64,000 nt of DNA, taken from NCBI GenBank assembly GCA_029881255.1, contig JAOUMY010000012.1, positions 62,001-126,000 of the forward strand, read 5' to 3'. Numbering within the stretch: the stretch's first letter is position 1; each line of letters begins with the position of its first letter. Shown piece by piece: positions 3,583-60,901 of this stretch. The notes below the pieces were generated by a model. The model did not search any database, had not been told where the DNA came from, and worked only from the letters and a program-made list of their open reading frames with translations. This stretch comes from Gammaproteobacteria bacterium. Its GTDB lineage: Bacteria > Pseudomonadota > Gammaproteobacteria > S012-40. Position numbers and translations under genes: made by a program.

Positions 3583-4599
3583 ATGACACTTGGGCCAGTA
3601 ATGATCGACCTGGAAGGTACCTCGTTGAGCGCGGAAGAAAAAGAGATGATCGCGCATCCGATGGTTGGTGGACTTATATTCTTTACTCGAAATTTTGAGA
3701 GTCGGCAGCAAATTCACCAGCTAACCCGGGAGATCAAGAAAATACGCAATATTCTGGTATGCGTTGATCATGAAGGCGGGAGAGTCCAAAGATTTCGAGA
3801 AGGTTTTACACGACTACCACCTTGCGCTGTCCTCGGTGAAACCTACGATAAGAATCCTCAGAAGGCGATGAGTGACGCCCACGCCTTGGGGTGGTTGATG
3901 GCTGCTGAGTTAATTGCGGTACAGATAGATTTCAGTTTCGCACCAGTGCTGGATGTGGATTATCGGCTTTGTGATGTTATCGGTAATCGTGCGTTTCACT
4001 CTGATCCAGAGATAATCGGTAAATTGGCATCATCATACGTTAAAGGCATGGCAGACGCCGGGATGAGTAGTACCGGCAAACACTTCCCTGGTCATGGGGC
4101 GGTGAAGGAAGATTCCCACCTTGAACTGCCAGTTGACGGCCGGTCTCTGAAGGAAATCATGAATAATGACGTTATACCGTTCCGACGTCTGAATGAAAGC
4201 AATTTGCTCGACGCCGTTATGCCGGCCCATGTGATTTACGATCAAATAGACAAAATGCCTGCAGGATTCTCCTCGGTGTGGATTAAACAGATCTTGCGCG
4301 AGCAGTTACACTTTAACGGCGTCGTTTTCAGTGACGATTTGAATATGGCTGCTGCCGGAATGGCGGGTAGCTTTACTGATCGAGCAGAGGCGGCGATGAA
4401 GGCGGGATGTGATATGATTCTCGTCTGCAACAATCGCGCAGGGGCAATTGAGGTGCTGGAACATTTCAATTGGCAAACTGAGAGGCTATCGATAGAACGT
4501 CTGGAAGGCATGTTTGCCAAGAAAATAACCAACGAAATTGATCTCAAAACCTCTGACAAATGGCAAGATGCCGTGGCGATTGCGGAGTCGTATATGTAG
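3583..4599 (+). CDS. nagZ: Beta-N-acetylhexosaminidase NagZ
   Basis: A 338-aa GH3 glycosidase that removes GlcNAc from anhydro-muropeptides during cytoplasmic peptidoglycan recycling. The length matches E. coli NagZ (about 341 aa). Visible signatures are DHEGGRVQRF (residues 62-71, substrate-binding Asp62), KHFPGHG with the DSH motif (166-179, the flexible-loop Asp/His pair used for acid-base catalysis) and FSDDLNM, whose Asp251 is the expected nucleophile. ATG 3583 follows AGGAAGG at about 3570-3576. The stop is only 20 bp from the MscS start, so the two may be cotranscribed. No ampC, ampG or other recycling gene is in view. Confidence 0.96.
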   Translation: MTLGPVMIDLEGTSLSAEEKEMIAHPMVGGLIFFTRNFESRQQIHQLTREIKKIRNILVCVDHEGGRVQRFREGFTRLPPCAVLGETYDKNPQKAMSDAHALGWLMAAELIAVQIDFSFAPVLDVDYRLCDVIGNRAFHSDPEIIGKLASSYVKGMADAGMSSTGKHFPGHGAVKEDSHLELPVDGRSLKEIMNNDVIPFRRLNESNLLDAVMPAHVIYDQIDKMPAGFSSVWIKQILREQLHFNGVVFSDDLNMAAAGMAGSFTDRAEAAMKAGCDMILVCNNRAGAIEVLEHFNWQTERLSIERLEGMFAKKITNEIDLKTSDKWQDAVAIAESYM

Positions 4600-4619
4600 T
4601 CGGGGAGTCAGCGTATTTC

Positions 4620-5741
4620 ATGGATATTAATCGATATCTTCAGGAGAGTTTTGCCTTCCTGAGTCTAAGCCAGGACTGGCTGCTTCAAGTCTTTTTGGTC
4701 ATAGTTGCAGTACTGTTTTTTAATTTTTTTCAACGACGCTTTTTACGACGTTTGCGCGTTCAATTGGAAAAGACGCAAAACAGCTGGGATGATGCCTTTG
4801 TTGTTGCCCTGGGCCCACCGCTTACGTTATTAATCTGGATTATTGGGCTGGCTTTTGCTGCCCATATTGTTCAGACCGCTACCGGGGCTGAGATATTTAC
4901 AGCCTTTTCCACTGCTCGAGATGTGGGCGTTATCGGCTGTCTATCCTGGTTTTTAGTACGATTCACCAACAAAGTCGAAAGTAATATTCTCGCACTGGCA
5001 GAACGTCGCGGCAGAAAAATCGATCCAACCACTGCCGATGCAATCACCAAGCTGTTACGTATATCCATTATTATTACAGCGACGCTGGTGGTATTGCAGA
5101 CCATGGGATTTAGCGTCTCAGGGGTAATGGCATTCGGTGGAATAGGGGGAATTGCGGTAGGTTTCGCGGCTAAGGATTTATTAGCTAATTTCTTCGGCGG
5201 ACTCATGATATATCTCGATCGACCTTTCGCCACAGGCGATTGGATACGTTCGCCTGATCGTGAGATCGAGGGCACCGTAGAGAACATAGGCTGGCGATTG
5301 ACCACGGTGCGCACCTTTGACAAACGTCCTATCTATATCCCGAATTCCATATTCGCCAACATAACGGTTGAGAATCCATCGCGCATGACCCATCGACGCA
5401 TATATGAAACCATCGGTATCCGCTACGAAGATGCGTCAAAAATGCAAACAATTATTGATGATATTAAAGCAATGCTGCTTGCCCATGATGAAATAGACAC
5501 CACGCAGACAATGATTGTGAATTTTAACGATTATGGTGCGTCGTCATTGGACTTTTTCGTCTATACATTCACCAAAACAACGAATTGGGTAAAGTTTCAT
5601 GAAATCAAACAAGATGTGTTGCTGAAAATTTATGAGGTCATCTGCAGTCATGGCGCCGACATTGCGTTCCCTACAACGACGATAAATACATCAGAAAGTG
5701 CTCCATTAGGGTTAAATACCATAGAAAGAGAAAAGGTATGA
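4620..5741 (+). CDS. MscS-family small-conductance mechanosensitive channel
   Basis: A 373-aa inner-membrane channel that releases solutes on hypo-osmotic shock. Three to four hydrophobic helices in the first 170 residues precede the Gly/Ala-rich pore helix (GGIGGIAVGFAAKDLLANFF). The beta domain starting with LDRPFATGDWI and the C-terminal alpha-beta domain follow. The frame is open upstream to 4560 inside nagZ, but ATG 4620 gives a normal N-terminus and has GGGGAG at about 4601-4606, so I prefer it. Some MscS relatives conduct specific ions or solutes, so the exact role is open. Confidence 0.93.
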   Translation: MDINRYLQESFAFLSLSQDWLLQVFLVIVAVLFFNFFQRRFLRRLRVQLEKTQNSWDDAFVVALGPPLTLLIWIIGLAFAAHIVQTATGAEIFTAFSTARDVGVIGCLSWFLVRFTNKVESNILALAERRGRKIDPTTADAITKLLRISIIITATLVVLQTMGFSVSGVMAFGGIGGIAVGFAAKDLLANFFGGLMIYLDRPFATGDWIRSPDREIEGTVENIGWRLTTVRTFDKRPIYIPNSIFANITVENPSRMTHRRIYETIGIRYEDASKMQTIIDDIKAMLLAHDEIDTTQTMIVNFNDYGASSLDFFVYTFTKTTNWVKFHEIKQDVLLKIYEVICSHGADIAFPTTTINTSESAPLGLNTIEREKV

Positions 5742-53375: not shown

Positions 53376-53400
53376 AAGTGGCCGACCATGTCGGCCACTT
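53376..53400 (-). promoter_or_regulatory. dsrC: Strong hairpin between dsrC and dsrM
   Basis: A 10-bp perfect stem (AAGTGGCCGA / TCGGCCACTT) with a 5-nt loop starts 8 bp past the dsrC stop. Only a short U run follows on the transcript, so partial termination or 3'-end protection of a dsrC transcript is more likely than full termination. Confidence 0.65.
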
Positions 53401-56027: not shown

Positions 56028-56055
56028 AAAAAAACGCGGGGGATTAACCCGCGTT
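56028..56055 (-). terminator. dsrA: Terminator-like hairpin at the dsrA stop, before dsrB
   Basis: Read on the minus strand, AACGCGGG pairs perfectly with CCCGCGTT around a 7-nt loop that contains the dsrA stop codon, and five or more further T residues follow. It has every visible property of an intrinsic terminator yet lies between two subunits of one enzyme, with a 50-bp gap. Partial read-through or mRNA processing is the likely outcome. Confidence 0.75.
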
Positions 56056-57291
56056 CTTTCTTTGTTCCCATTTCTCGGCTTCTTCCGCCCAGGTGTCCAT
56101 GCGCACGTAAGAGCTCTGACGTGGATGATTGACCATGTTTGGATCAACATCGATACCTACACCTTCAAGGAAGTTGACCAGGCCGATGCGCTCGATCATT
56201 TCACCGGTACGCTCGTGCTCAAGCGCGTTTTCAGCGAAGAAGTCGATGATGTTTTCAGCCATTTCAGTCAGCGCTTCGAAGTCTTCTTCTTCTTCCAGCT
56301 TCATGAAAGGAACAACAACCGTACCCATGGTGTCACCGATCTTCAGCGTACGCTTACCACCGATCAGAATGGTTACGCCGTGATCATCACCAGGAGACAA
56401 TGCCTTGGTCATGACGTTAATACAGTGCATACAACGAACGCAATTGCGGTTGTCGACAGCCAGCGTGTCATCATCGTTCAGAGACAGCGCATTAGTCGGG
56501 CAACGTGAAACGACATTGTCGATAACGTATTTGCGGCTCTTCGCATTTATGAAATTCTTTACTTCCGCCTGATCAACTTTCATGTCGTCACGCCATGTTC
56601 CAATGACAGCCATATCTGAACGGTGAATCGCGTTCATACAGTCATTAGGACAACCCGAAACTTTGAATTTGAACTTGTAAGGCAGGGAAGGACGGTGCAT
56701 CTCGTCGAGGAAGTTGTTAACCAGCGTACGGTGAATCAGTTGCTCGTTCGCACAAGAGTGTTCACAACGCGCCGCACCTACACAAGACATGCCAGTGCGA
56801 ACAGCAGGGCCAGCACCACCAAGGTCAAAGCCCATTTCATTCAGTTCGTCGAATGCAGGCTGTACATTGTCAGTGGAAACACCTTGGAACATGATATCGC
56901 CAGATTGACCGTGGAATGCGATCAGACCAGAGCCATACTTTTCCCATACGTCACACATATCGCGCAGGGTTTTGGTGTTGTAGTGCATGCCAGCAGGTGG
57001 CTGAACACGCAAGGTGTGGAATTCGGCAGCCTCGGGATATACGGCTTTACCGGTAGTTTTGTCTTTCAATTCGGTAAAACGGGGAATAACACCACCGCCA
57101 TAACCGCGGACACCAACTGTGCCCCCTTTCCAGTAACCCTTGCGAGTCTTGTAGGATTCTTCCAATTGACCCAACAGGTCAACCGCCATGTCATTGTTTT
57201 CTGCCAGTTTCTTGATGCCAGTTACAAAACTGGGCCAAGGACCGCTTTCCAATTGATCTAGATTGGGTGTATCGTGAAGTTTCTTAGCCAT
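56044..57291 (-). CDS. dsrA: DsrA, dissimilatory sulfite reductase alpha subunit
   Basis: A 415-aa catalytic subunit. The sirohaem-[4Fe-4S] cysteines are in CVGAARCEHSCANE and KVSGCPNDCMNAIH, and the ferredoxin insert has CPTNAL and NCVRCMHCINVM. AGGGGAAGG lies 7 bp before the ATG. It is the first gene of the dsr transcript, divergent from the TauD/Cas6-like operon. Confidence 0.97.
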   Translation of the reverse strand: MAKKLHDTPNLDQLESGPWPSFVTGIKKLAENNDMAVDLLGQLEESYKTRKGYWKGGTVGVRGYGGGVIPRFTELKDKTTGKAVYPEAAEFHTLRVQPPAGMHYNTKTLRDMCDVWEKYGSGLIAFHGQSGDIMFQGVSTDNVQPAFDELNEMGFDLGGAGPAVRTGMSCVGAARCEHSCANEQLIHRTLVNNFLDEMHRPSLPYKFKFKVSGCPNDCMNAIHRSDMAVIGTWRDDMKVDQAEVKNFINAKSRKYVIDNVVSRCPTNALSLNDDDTLAVDNRNCVRCMHCINVMTKALSPGDDHGVTILIGGKRTLKIGDTMGTVVVPFMKLEEEEDFEALTEMAENIIDFFAENALEHERTGEMIERIGLVNFLEGVGIDVDPNMVNHPRQSSYVRMDTWAEEAEKWEQRKNAG

Positions 57292-57321
57292 AATAGCCTT
57301 CCCCTAACAAGTTAACTTATT

Positions 57322-57333
57322 GAGAACGTTCTC
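57322..57333. promoter_or_regulatory. 12-bp palindrome upstream of dsrA, candidate operator
   Basis: GAGAACGTTCTC is a perfect palindrome 31 bp upstream of the dsrA start codon. It is a good size for a dimeric regulator site, but no regulator gene for dsr is visible in the window. Confidence 0.4.
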
Positions 57334-57800
57334 TGCACTGATTCAGGACAGCCTCTTACATCGGGCCCCTAATCCAATCACATTAGTCTATGTTAATTTA
57401 GTTCATAAGGAGTACCCCGCTGTTGGGAGGGGTAGGTAAAGTGATGTATATCCCAAAAGAGATATACGAATATAATCTCCTTATTTCAGATAGATACAAT
57501 ACCTTTTCTCATTTCGATATTGAATTGGGTCGCAACAGTGCAACGAGTAACCCATGTGATTATGTCGAACCAAGCAACGACGCGGGATGCGTACGCAGAG
57601 CAGTCACACGAAGCTGCATTATAACCACATGCTGAGTAAGGGTGAGTAGGTAAAACGGGTTCAAATGGTTTCAATTCAAATTGCTTGAGAGAGCGAATGG
57701 CGATAAAGACCTTAAGATATGAAATGTAACTACTTGGTTTTATTTTGTCTCTACTATATTGCCTAATATTAATAAGTAAAAAGGAATGATGACCGATAAC

Positions 57801-57816
57801 TATCCCTATCGGGATA
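57801..57816. promoter_or_regulatory. Inverted repeat TATCCC/GGGATA upstream of the TauD-like gene
   Basis: A 6-bp perfect inverted repeat with a 4-bp spacer, 83 bp before the TauD-like start codon. A possible operator; evidence is symmetry only. Confidence 0.3.
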
Positions 57817-57898
57817 TCGCGGTTGCAAACGATAGCCGGTAGTTTCCGACTCAACGGCCTGAAGCCCAAAATTGATCAACTAAAATCTCTATAGTGAT

Positions 57899-58825
57899 AT
57901 GTTAACTTTCAGCAAACTAGCCAGTAACCCGCATGCCTCCTTGATGAAACCCGCTACAAAACCAAAGCACCAGGTCGATTATGAGCGTTGGCGTCGGCAA
58001 AAATTGGCGGCCTATGAGAATACGCCATCATTGGTGACAGCTCTGGCGAATCCTTTTGATATCACTGAAGATGAATATTCGAAGATATTGACGAACATAA
58101 AGCAATTCAATATGGCGCTTTATGCGACGGACTGTGGTGGTGTGGAAGACGATAATATACCGCGTCAGATAGGTAGACGTTTCGGTCTTGAAAACCTCGA
58201 CAGGCATTTGTGCGCAGAAGAATCAGGCATTGCCGCGTTGCGATTTAATCCTGATCAATTGCATGGTGAATATATTCCCTATTCACGACGTGCGATCAAT
58301 TGGCACACCGATGGATACTACAATAATCCGGAGCAGCGTATTAACGCGATGATCTTACAGTGTGTGAGTACCGCGGAGTCTGGAGGGGAAAACGCCGTCA
58401 TGGACCCGGAGATACTGTATATACTGCTGCGAGATGAAAACCCAAGTTACATTGATGCGCTTTCCCGTAATAATGTGATGACTATTCCTGCTAATGAACA
58501 GGATGGGAAGGTCATAAGAGAAGCTCAAACGGGTCCGGTATTTTATAGTGATGAAGCCGGGAATCTTCACATGCGTTATACTGCGCGTACACGTAGTATC
58601 GAGTGGCTGGATGACCCTATGGTTAAGAAGGCTACAACACGGATAACGCAAATTCTCAATGACCCACGTTCACCTTATATCTTTCGGTTCCGTATGAAGC
58701 CAGGGCAGGGCATTATTTGCAATAACGTGTTACATATGCGTACGGCATTTGAAGACAACACGCGTACCGGCCAACATCGTTTGGTGTACCGAGCACGCTA
58801 TTACGACAGAGTCAGGATTGAGTAG
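57899..58825 (+). CDS. TauD/TfdA-like Fe(II)/2-oxoglutarate dioxygenase
   Basis: A 308-aa predicted non-haem iron dioxygenase. The metal-binding HxD is His136/Asp138 (INWHTDGYYN). The distal His is probably His279 (NNVLHMRTAFED), and the 2-oxoglutarate Arg is among Arg294-Arg300 (QHRLVYRARYY). TauD relatives release sulfite from sulfonates or hydroxylate other small molecules or proteins; the substrate here is unknown. It is the first gene of a four-gene operon, and its stop abuts the next start. ATG 57899 has a weak ribosome site; ATG 57944 is an alternative. Confidence 0.82.
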   Translation: MLTFSKLASNPHASLMKPATKPKHQVDYERWRRQKLAAYENTPSLVTALANPFDITEDEYSKILTNIKQFNMALYATDCGGVEDDNIPRQIGRRFGLENLDRHLCAEESGIAALRFNPDQLHGEYIPYSRRAINWHTDGYYNNPEQRINAMILQCVSTAESGGENAVMDPEILYILLRDENPSYIDALSRNNVMTIPANEQDGKVIREAQTGPVFYSDEAGNLHMRYTARTRSIEWLDDPMVKKATTRITQILNDPRSPYIFRFRMKPGQGIICNNVLHMRTAFEDNTRTGQHRLVYRARYYDRVRIE

Positions 58826-59029
58826 ATGGAAAAGCTGAGTGAAATAGCCGAATTGGATGCCCCGTTTAACAAGAAAATAACCTTTCAGAAAGTGGAATAC
58901 GAAAACGGATTCCAGTTTTTACGTATGCGCATAAAGGAAGGCAAGCGATTCACGATTATCGATCTCGATGTCCATACAGCACAATCCTGTGCCGACACGA
59001 TTAACCAATGGATAGGCCAACTGGACTAG
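58826..59029 (+). CDS. Small conserved-looking protein of unknown function (67 aa)
   Basis: A 67-aa protein starting immediately after the dioxygenase stop (TAG-ATG) and ending 4 bp before the Cas6-like gene. The sequence is compact and mixed alpha/beta (ITFQKVEYENGFQFLRMRI; RFTIIDLDVHTAQSCADTI), with no membrane segment. The tight spacing argues that it is a real gene. I do not recognise the family with certainty. Confidence 0.75.
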   Translation: MEKLSEIAELDAPFNKKITFQKVEYENGFQFLRMRIKEGKRFTIIDLDVHTAQSCADTINQWIGQLD

Positions 59030-59033
59030 ATCA

Positions 59034-59690
59034 ATGTGGCAGGAAAAAAACCAGCACTATCGTGTTCCTGATGATGTCATTGAGGTGATCTTTAAGGTCG
59101 CCGGCAAGACACTTTGCAAGGAATATGAATCCCTACTCGCAGAGTCTCTGTACACGTTGTTTCCGACACTGCGAGAGATGGAAGATGTGGCGATTTTTCT
59201 CAATCATGCCATAGAAGAGGGGAACGGATGGTATATGGACGATGATCCCAGTGCGCCGTTGTATCTCTCACGTCGGACCAGACTGACATTACGTATCCCT
59301 TCAGTTCAGGAAGACGCGTTGCTTGCAGCGTTCAAGGACGGGATATTAAACATCAAAGAACATGAACTGCGCCTCACGCATTCTCAGTCACGACTGCTTT
59401 CGCCTTCTGCGACTTTGTATGCACGGCATATCGTGTCTGGTGAAGACGATGAAGCGGCATTTGTGTCACGAATAATCGAAAAACTGCGTGATATGGAAAT
59501 CCGGCCCAAGCGCCTTTTACCCGGAAAGGGAAGACAAATTCAACTGGATGATCAGCAATTCTATACGCGTAGCCTGATGATTGCCGATCTTGAAAAAGAC
59601 GAAGCGATACGTTTACAACAAAAAGGTCTTGGGCCACTCCGTCATATCGGTTGTGGTGTGTTCGTTCCCTATAAATCCATTTCAGATTAA
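59034..59690 (+). CDS. Cas6/Cmx6-like RAMP-fold protein in a non-CRISPR operon
   Basis: A 218-aa protein. Its C-terminal Gly-rich loop (GLGPLRHIGCGVFVPYKSI, about 197-215) and the preceding SLMIADLEKDEAIRLQQ match, from memory, the type I-MYXAN Cas6/Cmx6 family. The middle blocks YLSRRTRLTLRIP and ATLYARHIVSG agree. Cas6 proteins bind and cut CRISPR repeat RNA. Here the family His near the N-terminal helix seems to be replaced (KEYESLLAESLY), and the usual His in the G-loop (GPHR) is Leu. No repeat array or other cas gene is in view. It is 4 bp after the 67-aa gene and 6 bp before the next, so it is cotranscribed with them. RNA binding without CRISPR function is the likeliest role. Confidence 0.7.
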   Translation: MWQEKNQHYRVPDDVIEVIFKVAGKTLCKEYESLLAESLYTLFPTLREMEDVAIFLNHAIEEGNGWYMDDDPSAPLYLSRRTRLTLRIPSVQEDALLAAFKDGILNIKEHELRLTHSQSRLLSPSATLYARHIVSGEDDEAAFVSRIIEKLRDMEIRPKRLLPGKGRQIQLDDQQFYTRSLMIADLEKDEAIRLQQKGLGPLRHIGCGVFVPYKSISD

Positions 59691-59696
59691 CTTTCT

Positions 59697-60287
59697 ATGA
59701 GACTCAAATCCGGTTGGTTCAATAAGGACAAGCCTCGCTCTATTGCGGAACTCGGCGATGTCATGGGCTTTAATTTATGGTCTATTGCGGTCAATCGCGT
59801 CAAACATATGGAAGGGCAGGGATTCAAGGTCAACCTTCCCGCCCAGACCCTGGCTGTGATTGGCGAGTATCTGTTTTTCCTGATGCAGAAAATCGATCGC
59901 TATGTTTATAGCCGTTTGCCGCAGGAACAGCGCAATGCGTTCATTCAGTCCCTGGCAAAAAAGCTGATCAATACTATGGTAGAAAATCAGTTTGATGCCC
60001 ACGGCGCCGGTGATTACGCCACGCCATTTATTGTACGTATGAATGAAGCTCTCGGCGCCTATGCCCGCTTCGACGATGCCCGGGATGAAAGCGAGGCCTC
60101 TTACCCTTCTTTGGTCTATCTTGGCGATAGTATTGAAAACCTTGTGAAGGATTTGAATCAGGGATGGGTTAAGGAGCAGGTCATTGAAATCGAGGGCCTC
60201 GGCGCCGTGGAAAGTCTGATGCGCGTGTTGCCAAGAATAGTCGAAAGTGCAGAGAATGTTGATAATAATCAAGATTCTGTGGAGTAA
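59697..60287 (+). CDS. Unknown protein, last gene of the TauD/Cas6-like operon
   Basis: A 196-aa soluble, mainly helical protein (RLPQEQRNAFIQSLAKKLIN; NAVESL-like helices near the end). It has no signal peptide, no cysteine cluster and no motif that I recognise. It starts 6 bp after the Cas6-like gene, so coexpression is clear. A possible weak hairpin (60296-60313, AGCACTT/AAGTGCT) follows the stop. Confidence 0.75.
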   Translation: MRLKSGWFNKDKPRSIAELGDVMGFNLWSIAVNRVKHMEGQGFKVNLPAQTLAVIGEYLFFLMQKIDRYVYSRLPQEQRNAFIQSLAKKLINTMVENQFDAHGAGDYATPFIVRMNEALGAYARFDDARDESEASYPSLVYLGDSIENLVKDLNQGWVKEQVIEIEGLGAVESLMRVLPRIVESAENVDNNQDSVE

Positions 60288-60394: not shown

Positions 60395-60901
60395 ATGAGT
60401 GAACAACCGTCATCCCTGTGGGGAAGCCTGTTTCGCGCAAAAGAGCCCTGGTATGAAGAAGTCATGTCACTCTGGGCGCGCACGCCGTTCTTTGCCAATA
60501 TTCCTGAACGAGAAATAATTAAACTTGCCAAGGTAATGCATCCTCGTAAATTTAACGCCGAGGAATTCATTTTTCGCTACGGTGACCAAGGTGCGGGCGC
60601 GGCGATGATTATTTCTGGTGCAGTAGAAATCAGTTATCAGGGCACGGTATTGGCCACATTACAGCGTGGAGATTTCTTCGGAGAAATTGCACTCGTACTT
60701 GATGAGCGGCGCACTGCAGATGCGGTGGCCAAAGAGCCCTGTGAGGTCGTATTTTTTTTACGCCCGGATTTGGATGAATGGATTGCGCGAGCACCGCAAC
60801 ATGGCGCTCGTCTAAGCACAAACCTGGCGCATGTTCTGGCCAAACGACTATTACACGCAAACAAGATGCTCGCCGACGAGAGGAAACGACATGTGGGCTA
60901 G
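60395..60901 (+). CDS. Stand-alone cyclic-nucleotide-binding domain protein
   Basis: A 168-aa protein with one cNMP-binding domain (about 35-155). The phosphate-binding cassette is visible (GDFFGEIALVLDERRTADAVA, read with the Arg at its end). No HTH domain follows, so it is not a CRP-type regulator. Its end overlaps the permease gene by 11 bp, which suggests it controls or binds that membrane protein. A cAMP-forming cyclase is encoded 34 kb away in the window. Confidence 0.85.
   Translation: MSEQPSSLWGSLFRAKEPWYEEVMSLWARTPFFANIPEREIIKLAKVMHPRKFNAEEFIFRYGDQGAGAAMIISGAVEISYQGTVLATLQRGDFFGEIALVLDERRTADAVAKEPCEVVFFLRPDLDEWIARAPQHGARLSTNLAHVLAKRLLHANKMLADERKRHVG

Follow-up and report, generated by a model that had tools for sequence, protein, structure and literature searches.

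A Cas6-family gene linked to the oxidative dsr operon of Gammaproteobacteria

We suggest that a non-CRISPR homologue of the Cas6 endoribonuclease is, on balance, a fixed, single-copy accessory of oxidative Dsr in Gammaproteobacteria, with a proposed action on RNA. The linkage of its gene to dsr is very well supported. Its fold and homology, its co-occurrence with dsrA, the conserved divergent linkage, the operon partners, the active-site residues shared with CRISPR-linked proteins and the lack of association with cas1 were all established computationally. The case studied here lies in a 64,000-nucleotide stretch of a gammaproteobacterial contig (the window), for which a sequence-only reading had proposed a Cas6 relative recruited to a different function connected with sulfur metabolism. 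Co-occurrence with dsrA and gene linkage strongly support that proposal, but the loss of the catalytic His on which it partly leaned is not a property of the whole family.

The operon and its Cas6-family protein

In the window, four plus-strand genes spaced by 0, 4 and 6 bp face away from dsrA, exactly as the sequence-only reading had laid them out, coordinates included:

56044-57291, minus strand: dsrA, first gene of the oxidative dsr operon (TIGR02064, 582 bits)
57292-57898, no strand: intergenic gap separating the divergent dsrA and TauD genes
57899-58825, plus strand: TauD/TfdA-family Fe(II)/2-oxoglutarate dioxygenase gene, DsrQ of the literature (PF02668, 64 bits)
58826-59029, plus strand: DUF6967 gene, 67 aa (PF22295, 88 bits)
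59034-59690, plus strand: Cas6-family (PF09559) RAMP gene of the dsr-linked branch, 218 aa (Pfam, 168 bits)
59124-59126, plus strand: codon of Tyr31 (TAT), at the position of the alpha-1 His
59625-59657, plus strand: Gly-rich loop GLGPLRHIGCG, residues 198-208 (from the alignment)
59697-60287, plus strand: gene for a 196-aa all-helical protein (p196), without a Pfam family

The product of the first operon gene matches the TauD family, its translation shows the HTD and the distal His (in the HxD motif WHTDGYY and in NNVLHMRT), and its divergent placement beside dsrA is that of DsrQ, the name given to the TauD-like gene adjoining dsrA (Lenk et al. 2012, as cited in PMC7596348). DsrU has also been named in dsr loci (Lenk et al. 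2012, cited in PMC6018796, where its function is given as unknown). The passages on DsrQ and DsrU in PMC7596348 and PMC6018796 say nothing of a Cas6-family protein, a Cys-free DsrC or a 196-aa protein, and a literature search for Cas6 with dsr, in which Lenk et al. (2012) was covered through citing papers, found no paper reporting the link. The association of Cas6 with dsr is new relative to the literature found; DsrQ and DsrU were already named. Just 3' of the operon, the window holds a gene for a cyclic-nucleotide-binding protein (60395-60901), for which no counterpart was detected close to cas6 among the nearest relatives.

The 218-aa protein is genuinely related to Cas6. It scores above the gathering cut-off of Pfam PF09559 (26.7 bits), and its AlphaFold (AF2) model (pLDDT 91.3) has two ferredoxin-like domains with Cas6 topology. 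In a Foldseek search of the PDB, this model best matched Cas6 of a type I-B CAST (8fcu_B/8fcj_B, TM 0.79), followed by Cas6 of P. furiosus and then Cse3 of T. thermophilus, and a profile of the dsr-linked family retrieves 8fcj at 8.6e-25. Pfam, the structural comparison and the loop residues thus all uphold the earlier identification of a RAMP protein with a Cas6-type Gly-rich loop. The window copy scores 92.6 bits against TIGR02807 (Cmx6, type I-MYXAN), below the equivalog cut-off of 98.85, and at least one dsr-linked relative clears that cut-off (129 bits). Since the model also matches all 41 dsr-linked members scanned, automated annotation is likely to present many of them as CRISPR-related.

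The dsr-linked proteins share with type I-MYXAN Cmx6 and the CAST Cas6 the double ferredoxin RAMP fold, an alpha-1 DH motif, equivalents of R87 and R131 and the C-terminal Gly-rich loop. They differ in having dsr neighbours and no cas3, cas8, cas7 or cas5, and in a GNGW insert and a PHKGI-type tail; in the tree, the CRISPR Cmx6 group and the dsr group form separate branches (support 100/99). Distances among the Cas6 proteins correlate with those among DsrA (rho 0.62).

Co-occurrence and gene neighbourhood

Across 369 Gammaproteobacteria genomes of 272 genera, PF09559 was found in 118, practically one copy per genome, and dsrA (E<1e-30) in 119. Both genes are present in 111 genomes, the Cas6 gene only in seven, dsrA only in eight and neither in 243 (Fisher p=7e-75, with counts that ignore kinship). 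Most of the mismatches are contig breaks: six of the seven genomes with the Cas6 gene only reach a contig end inside the operon or shortly upstream of it (L064 of G138; L169-L171, L173, L174), and several contigs with dsrA only start or stop just upstream of that gene (L163, L164, L165, L167, L168). Against cas1 no association was seen in the same 369 genomes (50 with both genes, 68 with the Cas6 gene only, 85 with cas1 only, 166 with neither; odds ratio 1.4, p=0.13), and eight single-contig genomes carry the Cas6 gene without cas1 (G031, G046, G056, G091, G093, G120, G143, G320). The survey thus shows a gene that tracks dsrA, not cas1, and the sequence-only reading's suggestion of similar genes near dsr in other sulfur oxidisers proved correct, given their presence in 111 of 119 dsrA genomes. 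In a wider sample of the phylum, the gene occurs in 5/5 dsr-positive Gammaproteobacteria and in none of the 48 dsr-positive genomes of other classes, a result that we count against the accessory role proposed above.

No repeat array was found in the window and no cas genes neighbour the operon there, in agreement with the earlier statement on this point. Its genome (99% complete) has no cas1, no Cas7/DevR and no cas3 above cut-off, CRISPR outside the window being judged through missing cas genes; CRISPR-linked control loci, by comparison, do have neighbouring cas genes (L156-L159, L161, L162). One more Cmx6-like gene, at 3971-4762 of a Gloeobacter morelensis plasmid locus (L160), has no cas genes in 8.6 kb and adjoins a PAPS-reductase-family gene, a cupin and hypotheticals, possibly another non-CRISPR context of Cas6. 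A scan of public genomes found no relatives with the single window sequence and 580 with the family alignment. The best 80 of these 580, which are those closest to the window copy, include Thiohalobacter, Thiogranum, Marithrix, Venteria, Sedimenticola, Cocleimonas and Acidiferrobacteraceae. A search for phage-encoded Cas6 of the dsr-linked kind found none.

Of the 99 loci that extend 4.5 kb or more upstream, 84 have dsrA or dsrB nearby, and wherever dsrA was called upstream (85/85) it is divergent from the cas6 gene. In the common order, dsrA points away from a series formed by DsrQ/TauD, F7 (about 64 aa), optionally F18 (about 240 aa), cas6, a DsrC paralogue and F12 (about 67 aa), often followed further downstream by two additional Fe/2OG oxygenases, by DUF6866 and by the 196-aa family. 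The region 3' of cas6 near dsr in sulfur oxidisers (L036-L075) is a recurrent island with a PKHD-type and a second Fe/2OG oxygenase, DUF6866 (Sfum_1244 family), a Sel1-type protein and several small proteins. Four genomes carry a rearranged set: in L189, cas6, the DsrC paralogue (dsrC2), p196 and TauD adjoin dsrA in this order, and the same families are linked in L190-L192. The recurrence of the same gene set in two arrangements argues for a joint function. In the window lineage, DUF6967 occupies the slot that F7 has in most relatives, and the DsrC paralogue is found elsewhere in the genome and not next to cas6. DUF6967 also adjoins cas6 in L190-L192. In 6 of 40 extracted loci (L057, L058, L069-L072), cas6 is apart from dsr, and those genomes carry dsrA. 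In dsr loci of other classes that lack Cas6 (L193, L195-L197), TauD, F7 and DUF6967 stand in this order next to dsrA. Cas6 is thus not required for DsrQ and the small proteins, and TauD, F7 and DUF6967 form a part of the module that is older or wider than Cas6.

Active-site residues and partner proteins

The catalytic His of Cas6 usually sits at the start of alpha-1. The corresponding His31 is kept in 116 of 121 dsr-linked relatives, a set of loci that counts some genomes twice (e.g., L036 = L076), and in 7 of 8 CRISPR or CAST Cmx6 proteins, the CRISPR-linked controls being from cyanobacterial plasmids. Dsr-linked and CRISPR-linked proteins also have in common R87, R131 and the Gly loop, and the loop glycines (G198, G200, G206, G208) are invariant among the 121 relatives save for single exceptions. 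The presence of the alpha-1 His in so many relatives, as in CRISPR-linked Cmx6, makes RNA cleavage, beyond mere RNA binding, the likely ancestral activity of the dsr-linked family.

In the window copy, His31 is replaced by Tyr, and the alignment to a relative that retains the His (G008) has no gaps around this site. G001 and G002, which are sister genomes, share this Tyr, and L192 has it as a separate case. The His has therefore been lost, and the gene retained, in at least two lineages, which we count against a co-opted nuclease. The sequence-only reading, which took the catalytic His candidates to be lost, was right for this copy, its small lineage and one other, but not for the family. Invariants specific to the dsr-linked proteins are W2, GNGW (63-66), R81, E140, K160 and K214; the GNGW insert and the others could serve protein contacts instead, and this too we count against the preferred reading.

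The usual 3' neighbour of cas6 belongs to the DsrC/TusE family (PF04358, TIGR03342; 107-118 bits), with examples beside cas6 in a related locus and in the window's own genome, away from cas6:

L041:8136-8474: DsrC paralogue, cas6 neighbour
G000:C2:424968-425306: DsrC paralogue of the window's own genome

Unlike sulfur-relay DsrC, in which the penultimate Cys is described as strictly conserved, this paralogue has both C-terminal cysteines replaced, and the tail reads KGGY in 99 of the 99 paralogues recovered as cas6 neighbours. Because both cysteines are gone, it cannot relay sulfur by persulfide, and is likelier a decoy or regulator than a sulfur carrier. The 196-aa protein is conserved in dsr islands (22 homologues in 40 loci); its AF2 model (pLDDT 90.7) is a six-helix bundle, for which Foldseek found no PDB match at E<=0.001.

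Candidate RNA targets and alternative functions

An RNA target was sought within the dsr genes. In the window, one candidate hairpin lies in the gap between dsrC and dsrM:

53376-53400, minus strand: hairpin AAGUGGCCGACAUGGUCGGCCACUU, candidate RNA target

A hairpin is found in the dsrC-dsrM gap in 56 of 76 loci, against 2.6 expected by shuffling, and in the dsrA-dsrB gap in 34 of 81, the shuffling expectation across dsr gaps being 1-3. These hairpins are real, but they are not co-distributed with Cas6, and we rejected them as its target. The strong hairpins 3' of dsrC and dsrA probably act as stabilisers or attenuators of the mRNA. Within the cas6 operon, hairpins are near chance in most gaps, with little sign of conservation, and an Rfam search for an RNA partner gave no match; these results, like the poor match between dsr hairpins and Cas6, weigh against the co-opted Cas6 preferred below.

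It is very improbable that the protein is simply an orphan CRISPR Cas6, acting in trans to process arrays. This would fit the TIGR02807 matches, one of them above the cut-off, and the conserved alpha-1 His, but the gene tracks dsrA instead of cas1, its own genome lacks cas1 and DevR, and the eight single-contig genomes retain it without cas1. A protein that has given up acting on RNA and serves as a structural partner, for instance of the DsrC paralogue or DsrQ, would account for invariants absent from CRISPR Cmx6 (W2, W66, R81, E140, K160, K214) and for the loss of H31 in the window lineage and in L192. Against this, some 95% or more of members retain the Gly-rich loop together with H31, R87 and R131, the same set as in CRISPR-linked Cmx6, and we consider such a structural role rather unlikely, if less so than the other alternatives.

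Two alternatives name a specific RNA. If the protein processed the polycistronic dsr message at the hairpins that follow dsrA and dsrC, it could set the excess of DsrC, whose gene lies between these hairpins, both of which are far above chance; similar hairpins, however, occur in Cas6-less dsr operons (L194, L195, L197) and are absent from L189 and L192, which have Cas6, and their stem sequences vary, so that we judge this unlikely. Still less probable is an action on tRNA, with the DsrC/TusE-like paralogue, in a thiolation tied to the Dsr sulfur relay. It draws on the membership of the cas6 neighbour in the TusE/DsrC family and on E. coli, where TusE supplies MnmA for 2-thiouridine (PMC3397948), but a paralogue without both relay cysteines cannot carry sulfur as TusE does.

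The co-opted, dsr-linked Cas6 is our preferred reading. The protein would bind a hairpin of a host RNA, using its pair of ferredoxin domains and its Gly-rich loop; most species would probably cut that RNA with His31 on alpha-1. The window lineage, with Tyr31, may bind the RNA, or cut it only weakly, without the classical His. Least surely, the RNA might be a transcript of a sulfur-oxidation gene, or a tRNA from the related thiolation route of Tus and MnmA; the module, with DsrQ and the DsrC paralogue taking part, might thereby adjust Dsr output. We put forward tentatively, as somewhat short of an even chance, the broader idea that oxidative Dsr in Gammaproteobacteria includes a dedicated RNA-processing step in which the non-CRISPR Cas6, aided by the Cys-free DsrC and DsrQ, recognises one specific host RNA as an endonuclease and so controls sulfur oxidation.

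The NCBI model TIGR02807 is likely to tag many dsr-linked proteins as CRISPR-associated, misleading CRISPR surveys of sulfur oxidisers. If this protein is kept with dsr and not with CRISPR, in almost all Gammaproteobacteria that carry dsr, it would be a clear example of core energy metabolism taking over a protein that processes crRNA, and the finding suggests an unrecognised RNA-linked layer in a major sulfur-oxidation pathway.
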